From Tubulanus polymorphus (Eukaryota; Nemertea; Palaeonemertea; Tubulaniformes; Tubulanidae), in assembly GCF_964204645.1 (NCBI RefSeq), contig NC_134025.1, positions 10,173,001 to 10,237,000 on the forward strand: a stretch of 64,000 bases of DNA, given 5' to 3'. Positions 40,666 through 48,700 of the stretch are shown here, piece after piece. The position numbers and the translations under genes are program-made. Position 1 is the stretch's first letter. Each line of letters begins with the position of its first letter. The notes beneath the pieces are model-generated. The model was not told the origin of the DNA, made no database searches, and saw only the letters and a program-made list of their open reading frames with translations.

Positions 40666-43600
40666 ATGGTGAATGACGCCAAACCAAAAACAGCGAATGA
40701 CAGCTGGATTAGAGAAGGTAAATGATGACAGAAATTTCCAATCTTTTTTTGGTAGGCTTACCCTACATTTTGAGTACCTTGATGAGGTAATTCTTAAGGG
40801 ATGCTGCATCTGTTAGATTGTATTTCCTCCAACGTTTGATTTTTCCCATCCATGAAAAGCTTTGACCCTTCGAGTGCATCTACACTGCAGTGCAGTGTAT
40901 AATTCGGTGATAGACTTTCTTTGCTAAGCACAGTGGCCTACTGATTTAATACACCGCATTGCAGTGTATTGATGTTAAATCAGTATTGAGTATTTATCTA
41001 GATGGATGCACTTGGCAAACATGGAATATTGTTATTAAATCACTAATGATACACCGCGCCTCAGTGTAAGACACATGAGTGATGGTATGCGCTGTGGTAG
41101 AATCTTTGAAAATTTACAAATTATCTCCCGCACTTTCTGGAATCAATCAACTCAGCACTGAAAGGGTTAATTGATTTCGCTCAACTGATAGAATTCTTTG
41201 TGATTCTTAAATTGATTTAGAGGATTTTTTGTGTCCATGGTACAATACAAACAACGGCCTACCAAGTACCTATTAGAAAAAAGGAGTTGATTAAAATTGT
41301 GTGAAAAGGGTAGGGAGGCCGAGGGGAATATTTTTTGAAAGTCAATCTGTTTTGTTATTTTCAGATGATCCGGTTCGTGCATCGACGACATCCAGACATA
41401 AAGACGCTTATGAAGATATTCTGGATGAAAGGCGTCACTCGAGTGACATCCGTTTCGTCACGAGGTCCCATAAGAACGCTCCGTCGTTTAAATACAACAT
41501 TCCCAGAACGCCGAAACAGTTGATAGACCATGTACTGAAAAGTGACAGGGTTTCACACGTTGCTGAACAGGTTCGTGATTTATTTAGAGGCATTCATTTG
41601 CATCCAGAATTTTAAAGAGCTATTTTGGTCAAACAAAAAGGAGGGTTTGAATATTCAAAAGTATTTTAGCACCTTGTTCTAGAATTTGTATGGTTTATAC
41701 ACTGTTAGATATTACTTTATAGATAGACCTATTCAATAAATTACTGTTAGACCTAAGTTAATAATAATAGTAAAAATATATTTTATTATATATCGCAGTT
41801 ACAAAATCTTAACCACCACGCTTTATATCCTGAAGCTACATTATAAGAAGTTAAAAGATTGATCATAGGTGTTTACAAGAAGAAAAGTTTTCAATCTGGA
41901 TTTGAAGGCTGAGACAGTATAAAGTTTTTAATCCTTTATCGTATATGCCTGGTAAAAAGTCCAAAACTTCAGTTTGTAAATTTCAGATCAGTAAAGAGAA
42001 GAAAATTCCATTGGCTGATGTGGCGAAAGAAGCAGAATCCATTCTGAATGAGATGGCGCACAATTTCAGAATGAGATCTATTCGCGGCGTAGCTTATTTG
42101 CTGACGAAAGTTCTCAAATCGATTTATAAGAAAATCTACGTAAACGTTGAAGGCATCGAAAAGGTAAATAGTCGATCTTCGTGTCGAGTCCAGGGTTCAT
42201 AGCGGTCATTGGAAGTCATGAAATGGAAATGGGTCGATTCAAGGCCTTGAAAGTCATTGATTGCCTCTAAAGTTATTGATTCATGTTCGTGGTCATTGAT
42301 AGCGATCTACCTTACCGCACGAATAGATTTTGAAGTTTTTAGTCACAGATAATCTGTAGCTTAGGCATTTTACATTAACCGCATTCACACTAGATTCAGC
42401 GCTTATGAAGTACCGCACTGCGCTGGTGCCGAATTCAGATTAAGACTCGGAGTCTCCCCTCTGTTTCAATTCACCCCATTTTACGGTATATAGGCGAGAG
42501 GAAGGGTTAAGGAGGTTAGAGAATACGCCGGGAAATGGTTTTCAGCGGTGAGCTTTCGTCCAAAACATGGCCTTATTCAAGCACGATACCCGTTACATTC
42601 TGAAAGACTTGAATAATTCACGTTCAAAAAAGATGGAATAAATTCCGTAAACGCCTAGTGTTAGCCTGGATTCATGTCCACCATTATTTTGGTTTCTCTG
42701 TTCTAGTTACGGGCGTTGATCAAAGAGTATCCAGTTGTATTGATGCCGACTCATCGCAGTTACACTGATTTCCTGTTGCTCTCTTATGTCTGCTATCATT
42801 ATGAGTTACCAGTGCCGGTCATCGCTGCTGCCATGGGTAAGTTCATTGTATTTCAATAAATGCACTTGACTTTACGTTAATTGATATTCACGATGGTAGG
42901 CTAAAAGGGCATTACTTCTTTTAACTGATTTTGATGCTTTCATTCAATTAAACTATGCGGTATCTCAGTTAGTCTACTCATCCCGATAACATTAAATCCA
43001 GTTCATGAAATCCCATTGTTAAAGCCTCTAGGCCTCAGCCTTTCTAAAGTTTGATCATTTATTGACGCTGAGAATCTTAACTCGACCTTTAATCACCATT
43101 TCATCCGTCATCCCTATAAGAAATGAATGTCAATTAGAAATTGGAAATCTATCTTGAATAAATATTAACGTACTACACGATTAAGATTGAGGTACTTCGA
43201 ATTTCAATGTGAATCTGGGAGGCTACTTAGAATCATTAAGCACGGTAGGCAAAAACTGAAGGCTTCTTGAAGGAATTGAGACGTCATCATGTCAATTTTA
43301 GATTTTATGTCGATGAAATTTGTTGGTGATGTACTGCGAGGTTGCGGCGCTTTCTTCATCAGGCGAACGTTCGGCTCAGATAAACTATACTGGGCCGTTT
43401 TCACCGAGTATGTGCAGGCACAGCTGTGTAACGGAGACGCACCGCTTGAATTCTTCGTCGAAGGAACGAGAAGCCGAACTAGTAAAAGTTACGTCCCGAA
43501 GAGAGGTGAGGTTATATTGCAACCTCAAGGCCATCCCGAAACAATTGTCTGCTTGCATTAACAGGGTCCCTACGATTCCTTGATTCCATAGAAACTACCA

Positions 43601-46600
43601 CTAAACAGAAAATGCTTTTAGTGGTGTTTGAAGCTTTGAAGAACTTTATCAATTTTGAGAAATAAGCAATCAGATACTAAGAAATTTTATATTAGATTAC
43701 ACCTAAATCAGTACAATTGGAAGCAGGATACTTTTTCGCAATTAGGTGGTTCCCAATTTAGAAACCAAGTTTTGTTATAACGGTTTATCAAGATAAACAA
43801 TACTGATTTAGGAGTATATCGTAATTGGAATATAAAAATGATGAGACCCTTCATCGAAATATGAAATTTTCTCCTTTAGTTCTCCTTGAAAACTGAGCCC
43901 TGGGTAGGAAGTTAGATCTTTTAGATATAGTATAGTTGCTGAGAATAATTATCATAAAAGAATTAAAGCCCATAGAAATAAGATACAGGTTATAGATATG
44001 GATTCTGATTGGGGTTAATTAGGTCTAACACCCTTGTCTTTTATTTTGGGACTGTGAATTCCTACTCGTTTTCCTGCTATGATGAGTTCCTAGCTCTGAC
44101 CATTGGAAAAATTCTCATTTCTGTAATAGTTAAATGACTTTTTATCGCAGGCATGCTCTCTGTCGCTCTCGAGCCTTACTTCAAAGCAGAGGTGTCCGAC
44201 ATAATGATATTCCCTGTCAGCATAAGCCACGATAGGATTCTCGAGGAAGGATTATACGCTTATGAGCTGTTAGGGATACCGAAGCCAAAAGAATCCACAT
44301 CGGTAAGTGTTCGGTTCATGGAAAACAGAGTATAGCTGTTGTTTTCTATGAATTAACATTTTGCATGTGATGACTTGTTCTGCCTAGTTTCATTCAATAT
44401 GCAATTTGTTTCACCATTTTATTCTTCTACGGTCCAATTACTTCTTGGCATCATATAACTTTTTAGGGTTTGTTCAAAGCTAGAAGTATTCTGTCGGAGG
44501 ATTATGGATCAGTTCATTTTTTCTTCAACGATCCGATATCAATTCGACAGTATTCGGATGGCAAAATTGATCGGATTTCACATTCTCTTTCACCGAGGTG
44601 AGTACCGTATATTCTGGTCAAGATTCAGAATCATTAGGCTCTCGGTTCTCGTGCGTCTTGAAAAATGTCTTAACTTACAGTCTTGATGTTCGATAATTAA
44701 TTGTTTGCACTGTCGCAGCACACATCTCCTCACATGGGGTTGGGATTGCCCAGTGTATTGTTGTTCTTAGACAGTATTCTCACCAGTTGTTCTCACCACC
44801 GGGAGTTAGGAAACTTAGTCTCTGAATGAGCAGAATACCTTTGTTGATATCCATTCTATGCTTTATGGATAGACTTTCGTAAATAAGATTCCCAGTGAAA
44901 CCAGACTAAACCATAAGTTGTTTTAACAATCTTAAAGGTCAAATGCAGCCTAATTTGGAAAAATAGCAAAAGATATGTGAATGTGTTATATTAATTGGCT
45001 GTAATTATTCCTAGTTCTTTTGATTGTCACCATCGTTGTATCTTTTCCTTGGTATTTACCTTTTGCAGACATTTGTCGAAGGTCACTAAGGCCGAGACCG
45101 ACTTGTGCCAAGATTTGGCGTACACGTTAGTTCGCGAACACCAGAAGCACATGTGCATATCACCGTGGGCGTTGATAGCGACGATACTATTACAGAATAA
45201 AGACGGCATTTATTTGAATGACTTACTGAGAGAAGTTGTGTGGTTGAAACGCAGTGTGATCAACCTCGATGGATACGTTGATTGGCCGGGTTAGTATGCG
45301 GAGGTTTCATTGTGAAAGGCGATTCGTTTTTGATAGTCATTAATTACAAATTCGAGTAAACCAAAAGTTTAGAGCTAAAACTAGCTCTGAACGCACTTTT
45401 GGTATGGAAATGAATTATGACAAAATTTTGCACGTCCACTTTATCTCTAGATTTTTATGGACAAACGATGGATGATTTTTGATACTTAATAAATTCTTCA
45501 ATTGATAATGAGATTTTACTCGGTAGCACTATAGATGAATAATAATGCTTGAAAGCCTGTCTAAAAATCTGACATGATCTGAATCTATTGTGAAAGAAAT
45601 TTACTGAGTTTTGGTAAGTTTGAAACTAGTGGTTGTTCATTTAAATTGACAAATTTTAACAAAATGTTTATAGGTTGCATGACACCTGAACAGGTAGCAC
45701 TGGAGCAAATCAAAACGCACGAAAATCTAGTCACGATGAACAAAGACGGCTTATTGGAACTGAAACGGGTCGTCGCCAGTCACGCGAAGAGGGCGGCCAG
45801 GGATGAAATCCTGGTGAATGGCGCTACGCATCTGGCTCTGGCGTCTTACAGGAATCAACTCGTGCATTGCTTCGTACATGTCGGTCTCGTGGCGATTATT
45901 GTCAATGCTTCGACGCAAGAGAGACTGCCTTTAGGTGGGTGTGTGAATCTATGCCAGTATTTAATCTACAGCCCGGAACACAACACCTTCCTCCCTTATC
46001 AAGACATACACTATTGTAGGCGCGAAATCTTGACAATCACTTAAATGGTTTTGAATATCTGGCAAGTGTAGTCCTTTTGACAGTTTATTTTCATTTAGAA
46101 ACTGCCCAGTTTCACAAAAAGGTTTGACTCCTTTAAATTTGTAACCGTTTGACAATTTGTAAAGGTTTGACTCCTTTAAATCTGAACACACATGAAGCTG
46201 CACTCCCAATTTCTCAATTCTCGGAGAATCGCCTAGAAACATTTCTGGCCTCGGCCCTACTGAGTTTACTTTACTTACAATCAAACATTTGGGTTTAAAC
46301 AAAAAATGTTCCTCTTCTTACTTATTCGCAGATGAGGTTTACACTAAATATTGTTTCCTGGAAAAGCTGTTGGGCAGAGATTTCATCTTCCACCCTAAAC
46401 ATAGAAAACAAGTAGGTACTCAAAACGGTTGGTCTAAAAGTTATGATTGTAGTAATGTGTCCACAGTTTACTACAGACTTAGAAGAGATTCGCATGCAAA
46501 TATTTGTATCTTTTATTTACAGGATTTTGAACATGCAGTTAAGATTTTGAACAATAGTAATGTTCTGGTTTTAGAAGGCGATTCCGTGGTCGTTAAAAAA

Positions 46601-48700
46601 TCCACGAATAAATACAACACTTTCCTGAGTCAGATGTTTGAGCCATTCTTGCTAGCTTACTGGGTAAGAATCATCCGCCATCCCTTGGCAAGGTTTTGAA
46701 CCAGATGGCGCTGCAAGACTTCACCACGGCACAAAACCCTGCCTGAATAGCCCGAGTGTGCAGGTACATGTGCAGCTTGATTCAGGATGATGTCGTTATT
46801 GGCCCATCAGAAATCGGGTTTTATTTTACCTGAGTTTTTCTATGTACAAATCAACCATAAATTTGCCTCAGCTATATATCACCAGGGAATCTGATTGGCG
46901 CCACAAGAAAAAATTTCATGTTGTGGCCAGGTCTCGATTGCATCAAGTTTAAATCCCTGTGCAACTTGGATTAACCTTCTTTAGCTTGAATTCAATCTAG
47001 AGTTGCCATCATAAAGCGGGGATTTCGTCGAGAGGGTTCTTTTTGAGAACTAAAACTATTTGTTAACTAGTAAAATGTCAACCAATCATGTGTGAATATT
47101 ATCAATCGCCCGAAAGGTGGAATTGAACCACTCTGACGCTAGTCAGCTACAGGTTTGAAGCCTGCACCCCAGACCACTGAGGGTCATTCGGGCAACCTAG
47201 AAGGGTGCCGTGGTCATTATATATAATAGTTATATTTTCAATGATTGATCTGTTAAGTGTTTTCTCGGACGTTTGATTGTCATTGAGAAAATATTTTCAT
47301 AAGCATGATACGGTTGAACCATTTCCTCATGGGTATTAAATGTTATTTTGTAACACAGTTTTTCACGGCAATCTGCGTATCGTATGCTGATGAATCCACG
47401 TAACTGCAGTTATAGATGTTATTACATCTTCTTTAGTGTTCTTAACCTCCTGAAGGTGGCGTAGTGTCCACCAGTTTTTTTATACGAGTTCAACTATCTG
47501 TGTCTAGATATCTGGAACACGTTATCAGAGTGAGATATCTACCAGTAATCTCATACTTTTCATACTTTCAGATAACTTGCCAGTATTTGATGTTTTTACC
47601 CGCGAATGAAATGAAACCGCCGAAGACAATGGCTCGTAGTGTCCAGTCATTGATCACTCAGCTATTGCTACAGTGCGCCGTCAAACATTACGAAATGTTG
47701 TCGTTGGACATGATCAACAACGCTATTCATTCTCTAGTCAATATGGATGCTGTGATAATGGAAACTAGGTAAGAAAAAACAACGCACACCCGCCTGATTA
47801 TTATTAGATTCCATGTTTACCGATAACGCTTACCTTCTTGTTATCGAAAACGAAATGTTGATATTTGTGTAAATAGCGCGTGATATGACGTTCATTATAT
47901 ATTTTTTTTTTCTAGGAACGGCGTCAAGCAAGTATCTGCGAACTATGTGCAATTGCCGAAAATAGCCGAACAAATCAGTTAGTAAACATTCTTTCCTTAT
48001 TGCTTTCTCAATTTGAATTTGAATTTTTCACAATGCTAGTTGAATTTTAGTAGATGTTGGGCAAAATAACCCCTGGGAAACGGACAAGCACATGACATAT
48101 ACCCTTGTGTAGAAGTCAATAGTGTGTAGGGGTCAACATTTTCAAGCCTATTTGTCACTTGCATCATTGACATGTTTGATATTTTAATCACAACACAACC
48201 AGTATGCTGAATGTGCGTGTTATTCTGTTTTCTTGCTGCCAGATTTAGTATCAATGCACATGCGTCATGTACCTATTACCTGATCAGGGGTGGATTTAGG
48301 GGGTGGTCTCGGCGTCCAGTACCCTGCCCTCCCAGAGGTTGCCCTTTTCACCAAGACAAAGATCATCTCTAAACCTGCAATCTGATGCTCATCCTCTCGG
48401 AATTCGTATCTTTTACGGTGTATCTTCAAAATTATATCAACACCAAGGGTGTGACCCCCACTTGTGGCCTTTGACATGGCTGCTTTATCAGAGAAATGCC
48501 TTACCATTTTCCTGCGGGAAATAGTATTCAGCATAAATGTCCCTGATAAATTGCACTGTGTCTACTTGTTGTGGCATCGCTGGTTTGTTGCTTATGAAAA
48601 CTATTCTTCTGTTACAGAATCATACATAGAGAATGCAGACGTTACGCTATCCAGTGATCTCCTGAAAACCACTTCTGTCAGCATCGCTGCCAAGCTTTAA
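40666..48700 (+). CDS. GNPAT: Dihydroxyacetone phosphate acyltransferase, peroxisomal, 698 aa
   Basis: Adds the first acyl chain in ether-lipid (plasmalogen) synthesis inside peroxisomes. Exons: 40666-40717, 41365-41570, 41987-42163, 42707-42836, 43302-43505, 44151-44302, 44467-44597, 45069-45289, 45674-45934, 46332-46411, 46523-46663, 47572-47768, 47916-47977 and 48618-48700. All joins are in phase; the donors after 41570 (GTTCGT), 45289 and 47977 (GTTAGT) are weak. [16 protein letters not shown] matches the family N-terminus. The acyltransferase HX4D motif is H161-D166 (PTHRSYTDF), and EGTRSR is at 242-247. [13 protein letters not shown] and [14 protein letters not shown] are typical of GNPAT. 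The protein ends SIAAKL, a PTS1 peroxisome import signal identical in its last three residues to human GNPAT. The last exon carries only this tail. Human length is 680. An intron holds an antisense tRNA-Sec gene. Confidence 0.97.
40866..41166. repeat. TTAA-type element, divergent 301-bp copy
   Basis: Starts CCCTTCGAGTGCATCTACAC with the palindrome ACACTGCAGTGCAGTGT and ends CAGCACTGAAAGGG followed by TTAA (41167-41170). It is longer and more diverged than the other copies. It lies in GNPAT intron 1. Confidence 0.78.
42192..42318. repeat. Partial CAGGGTTCATAGCGGT element
   Basis: CAGGGTTCATAGCGGTCATT followed by TCAAGGCCTTGAAAGTCATT matches the left part of 59310-59669. The right end is absent. 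It begins about 30 bases after a GNPAT splice donor. Confidence 0.65.
43562..43902. repeat. CAGGGTCCCTACGA-family element, copy 4
   Basis: Starts CAGGGTCCCTACGATTCCTT and ends GAAAACTGAGCCCTG. About 341 bp. It lies in a GNPAT intron, 56 bases past a donor site. Confidence 0.78.
47107..47193 (-). tRNA. tRNA-Sec: Selenocysteine tRNA, anticodon TCA
   Basis: Carries selenocysteine to in-frame UGA codons. The 87-base minus-strand gene begins GCCCGAATGACCCTCAGTGG and ends CACCTTTCGGGCG. The acceptor arm pairs fully (GCCCGAA with TTCGGGC). The anticodon arm is GCAGGCTTCAAACCTGT with TCA, and the T arm carries GGTTCAATTCC. The long variable arm CTGACTAGCGTCAG forms a perfect stem. Relative to the vertebrate gene it has a compensatory swap that keeps the pairing, so it is under selection and not a relic. 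TTATATATAATA at 47217-47228 lies 24-35 bases upstream, where the known tRNA-Sec promoter has its TATA box. It sits in a GNPAT intron, antisense. No T run follows closely; the first TTTT on this strand is about 33 bases past the end. Confidence 0.97.
47217..47228 (-). promoter_or_regulatory. TATA box of the tRNA-Sec gene
   Basis: An A/T run including TATATATAA centred about 30 bases upstream of the tRNA-Sec 5' end. tRNA-Sec genes in animals use an external TATA box and a proximal element in addition to the internal B box. The proximal element would fall near 47243-47263; I cannot define it by sequence. Confidence 0.6.

Follow-up and report, generated by a model that had tools for sequence, protein, structure and literature searches.

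Two tRNA-Sec Genes in the Nemertean Tubulanus polymorphus: a Probably Functional Copy With a Type 3 Pol III Promoter, Antisense in an Intron of GNPAT

Introduction

A genome is commonly taken to have just one gene for tRNA-Sec. The closest described counterparts of the gene reported here, human TRU-TCA1-1 and the Rfam family RF01852, have the same length of 87 nt, TCA anticodon, long acceptor stem, long variable arm and G73. Multi-copy tRNA-Sec genes have already been described, as table 3 of the Secmarker survey lists more than one intact tRNA-Sec in a brachiopod (Lingula), a lancelet (Branchiostoma), crustaceans (Daphnia), chelicerates (spider) and others (Santesmasses et al., PMC5330540). 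In these animals, as in the genome studied here, there are two copies with G73 and their pairing is kept (PMC5330540). The present case differs in that its two copies are separated by one pair going from G-U to A-U and by one substitution in the linker, with no full double compensation between them, and in that one copy lies in an intron of GNPAT. Such a placement is uncommon, and no publication linking tRNA-Sec and GNPAT was found in a literature search.

A second, intronic copy of tRNA-Sec also exists in humans. This gene, tRNA-Sec2, lies in an intron of PARVB. It has no G73, pairs of its acceptor stem are broken and it shows no Pol III occupancy, and its origin was attributed to retroposition by Santesmasses et al. 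(PMC5330540). The copy described below resembles tRNA-Sec2 in its intronic position and in a similarity confined to the tRNA, but differs from it in having G73, intact pairs, a PSE and a TATA box. Introns with a Pol III unit on the antisense strand are already known as well. In one such case, an antisense MIR in an intron of Polr3e, itself a Pol III unit, interferes with its host gene and lowers it (PMC5358760).

Here, we describe a tRNA-Sec gene in a 64-kb stretch of the Tubulanus polymorphus genome, referred to as the window. With a probability of about 0.83, we consider this gene to be a functional duplicate, one of two in the genome, with a type 3 promoter that drives Pol III transcription.

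The tRNA-Sec Gene in the Window

ARAGORN calls just one tRNA in the window. It is a tRNA-Sec on the minus strand at 47107-47193, and its anticodon is TCA, or UCA in the RNA. It matches RF01852 over the full model (1-91 of 91) at 81.1 bits and an E-value of 3.7e-15, with a gathering cut-off of 47 bits, and its long acceptor stem and variable arm satisfy the covariance model. The match is real and far from chance, and on the strength of the ARAGORN call and this full-length match the complete tRNA-Sec(TCA) proposed in a preliminary description of the DNA is upheld. The predicted RNA fold contains the expected arms at -38 kcal/mol, with a z-score of -3.67 against shuffled sequences.

The discriminator G73 stands at 47107, where the gene ends in ..TTTCGGGCG and is followed by ATTGA, and CCA is not encoded. 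The RF01852 alignment, the fold and the promoter scan revealed none of the signs of a pseudogene looked for (broken pairs, loss of G73, loss of the promoter), nor was an A-tail found directly 3' of the gene. The first downstream run of four T, at 47072-47075 on the minus strand, lies at +32 after G73 and is possibly the Pol III terminator, with a second TTTT at +52. That the nearest T run is a TTTT only, and lies 32 bases downstream, is a point against function. In comparison with the human gene, 83 of 87 positions are equal; the window copy differs in a flipped pair of the variable arm, in A6 instead of G6 and in C11 instead of T11.

The Host Gene and Its Intron

The recognised part of GNPAT, with exons for the acyltransferase domain through to the C-terminal region, extends over 43280-47769 on the plus strand. 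It comprises a Pfam Acyltransferase match at 43280-43558 and two ORFs with GPAT_C matches, one at 45583 and the other at 47446 (47446-47769), and the C-terminal part of human GNPAT matches six stretches, in order, across 43448-46666 in a tblastn search. An exon ending at 46663 (..FEPFLLAYW) joins an exon starting at 47572 (ITCQYLM..) across a phase 0 intron at 46664-47571 on the plus strand, which has GT..AG ends and is 908 bp long. The tRNA-Sec gene lies within this intron on the opposite strand. The antisense placement claimed earlier is therefore borne out by the Pfam and tblastn exons on the plus strand and the tRNA on the minus strand; the long host gene also claimed is not, as the host intron is short. 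The same intron contains an interspersed repeat at 46680-46907, present in about 40 or more copies of about 73% identity and partly palindromic.

A Second tRNA-Sec Copy on Another Chromosome

In a whole-genome search with RF01852, exactly two matches exceed the cut-off, the window copy and a match at C3:4932292-4932377, which scores 81.6 bits, 0.5 bit above the window copy. The C3 match belongs to an intact tRNA-Sec gene of a different chromosome, at C3:4932291-4932378. The remaining matches, at 46.7 bits or less, were rejected as tRNA-Sec, and the six next-best that were examined are tRNA-Ser(GCT). The number of tRNA-Sec genes in this genome is two, and the two are nearly identical, differing at 2 of 87 positions. 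At position 6, a G in the C3 copy is an A in the window copy, which changes a G-U pair to A-U and keeps the pair. The other difference, T in the C3 copy and C in the window copy at position 11, sits in the linker between the acceptor and D arms, outside any pair. The C3 copy and the human gene both have T at this position, and the C of the window copy is a second point against its function. Linker residues of tRNA-Sec are on average well conserved (PMC5330540).

Beyond the tRNA, the flanks of the two loci are not similar. When the whole intron region was used in a DNA search, the C3 gene was matched over the tRNA alone (88 bases), and a comparison of 400 bases on each side of both copies gave no similarity above that of shuffled sequences. 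Because the flanks are no more similar than shuffles, a recent segmental duplication was rejected as the origin of the two copies. On the C3 chromosome, a protein gene runs away from the tRNA-Sec in the divergent direction, with the tRNA-Sec on its upstream side; translated by eye, its first exon apparently begins MEFQDLVNDLHFDFDQL.. at a distance of about 1 kb.

The same flanks bear on whether the second copy could be an assembly or haplotype artefact, leaving a single gene in the genome. Many extra identical copies in the Secmarker survey were artefacts of assembly (PMC5330540), but the copies here lie on different chromosome-scale contigs and differ at two positions, and their unrelated flanks argue strongly against this explanation, which we regard as highly improbable.

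The preliminary description took a compensatory base-pair change in the variable arm as an argument for function. The change itself is real: relative to the human gene, a U-A pair has become A-U. It is present in both copies, and it accounts for the 2 differences that separate the C3 copy from the human gene, as against 4 in the window copy. Because both copies carry the same pair, it is no evidence of selection on the window copy. Being common to both, it is therefore older than their split, or was spread by conversion.

These observations leave room for a different history, in which the window copy is a recent retroposed or otherwise displaced, silent copy of the C3 gene, as human tRNA-Sec2 is within PARVB. 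The similarity of the copies ends at the ends of the tRNA, as in the human intronic pseudogene (PMC5330540), and the C3 copy is the nearer of the two to the human gene. Against this history, the window copy has kept G73 and its pairs, with neither an encoded CCA nor an A-tail directly after it. Since an intronic copy with similarity limited to the tRNA is the very pattern of human tRNA-Sec2, the promoter had to be tested.

The Promoter of the Window Copy

For this test, a weight matrix for the PSE was built from upstream regions of U6, U6atac, RNase MRP, U1, U2 and U5 genes in the same genome, to which no tRNA-Sec contributed. The training sites were anchored by eye, and a check in which families were left out recovered the positions in U6, U6atac and MRP. 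Most of the snRNA and MRP upstream regions have a TATA box as well as a PSE with the core CACC(G). In U6 genes on two chromosomes and two high-scoring U6atac genes, the PSE starts at -70 and the TATA box at -32, while in the MRP gene they start at -69 and -32.

The window tRNA-Sec is like these type 3 Pol III promoters in the starts of both elements. Its PSE, AAAACACTTAACAGATCAAT (47244-47263, minus strand), starts at -70 and scores 11.2 bits (per-site p = 7e-5), and is the top match in the 120 bp upstream. Its TATA box, TATATATAAT, spans -32 to -23 (47225-47216, minus strand), sharing its start with those of U6, U6atac and MRP. The TATA run reported earlier at 24-35 bases upstream is thus present, and a matched PSE can be added to it. 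The spacing of 38 between the two elements is that of U6 and U6atac, with an alternative register of 40 inside the same TATA run. The PSE reads CACTTA.. as opposed to CACCG.. in most of those promoters; CACTTA also occurs in the U2 genes and one U1 gene. In a scan for distal elements (SPH/octamer), only an octamer with one mismatch was found, at -107, and the U6 genes are likewise without a clear site.

Scored together, the PSE and TATA box of the window copy reach 17.9 bits, the top of either strand in the 64 kb, with a runner-up at 13.9 bits. Only four sites among about 319,000 scanned positions attain the score of this pair. Two of them are the window site itself, seen in the window and in an overlapping locus, and the other two would be the two U6atac promoters, at 29.0 and 26.3 bits. 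The top PSE match of the C3 copy, TATATACCGTGTTTGTAAAG at -69, scores 4.9 bits (per-site p = 0.0024) and is accompanied by TATTTAA at -31; the pair scores 7.4 bits, which about 6 in 10,000 positions attain. Judging from these elements, both copies resemble Pol III genes of type 3, and the promoter of the window copy is the cleaner one.

This result weighs on the displaced origin set out above. A retroposed RNA would not carry an upstream PSE and TATA box, and the window promoter is the better of the two, with the exact positions of U6. Such a promoter is not what one would expect of a silent retroposed copy, and we consider that origin unlikely. The preliminary description had set against function a better-scoring copy elsewhere together with decay of this one in relatives. 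The C3 copy does score slightly higher, but the window copy is without decay, having kept its pairs and G73, and its promoter is the stronger.

The U1, U2 and U5 genes of this animal, of the Pol II class, have TATA boxes near -30 besides the PSE. By eye, the spacing between PSE and TATA box is mostly 33 in these genes and 37-38 in U6, U6atac, MRP and tRNA-Sec, a difference reminiscent of the plant spacing rule. When the idea that the two polymerase classes of snRNA genes can be told apart by this spacing was put to a blind test, the result did not reach significance (p = 0.085), owing to the weakness of several PSEs in the Pol II class. The U2 genes form a tandem array at C7:13975223-14013011, in which each unit is about 1,804 bp long.

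The Selenocysteine System

The preliminary description also held that this lineage keeps the selenoprotein system, and the genome contains several parts of it. SEPSECS is represented on C2 by eight exon matches. A GPX4-like exon has an in-frame TGA (NVASK-TGA-GLTEKNYTQL), and downstream of the last GPX4-like exon lies a SECIS with an AUGA / AAAC / UGAU core, which scores 30.9 bits (E = 0.001 in a 1.5-kb search), below the Rfam cut-off of 35 bits, with the full core kept. In addition, a SelW-like exon reads GG-TGA-GYGPRFRELSQQI (also given as GG-TGA-GY). These matches show that this genome has a Sec system. Four GPx-like genes stand in tandem at C4:8420821-8438200, and the exons seen start at the active-site position or immediately behind it.

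In the functional duplicate that we favour, SNAPc would bind the PSE at -70 and TBP the TATA box at -32, so that a type 3 promoter outside the gene would direct Pol III transcription within the GNPAT intron, on the opposite strand. The product would be loaded with serine, SEPSECS would carry out the conversion, and the tRNA would then be brought to UGA codons of selenoprotein mRNAs, of which the GPX4-like mRNA with its SECIS is an example. Both copies may be used in this way; as a point against this reading, the slightly better-scoring C3 copy could carry the whole tRNA-Sec load.

The antisense site raises the further question of an effect on the host, namely that the gene is functional and that its Pol III transcription regulates GNPAT by transcriptional interference. 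An intronic antisense position with a strong external promoter would suit such a role, for which the Polr3e MIR offers a precedent (PMC5358760); yet the host may well be unaffected by a Pol III gene that occupies a single short intron. We think this role improbable. GPX4 protects against lipid peroxidation, and ether lipids are prone to peroxidation. On this basis we suggest, as a very long shot, that antisense transcription of tRNA-Sec might damp GNPAT and so tie selenoprotein supply, through GPX4, to ether lipid synthesis.

Significance

What is new and of most use here is the second tRNA-Sec copy, together with the matched promoter. The PSE and TATA box, learned from the animal's own snRNA genes, provide a promoter test that speaks to whether a copy is live, which the shared compensatory pair cannot do. 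Tubulanus polymorphus is a well-supported case of two tRNA-Sec copies, and the two-base signature that separates them (A6/C11 and G6/T11) would make the use of each copy measurable from RNA reads.
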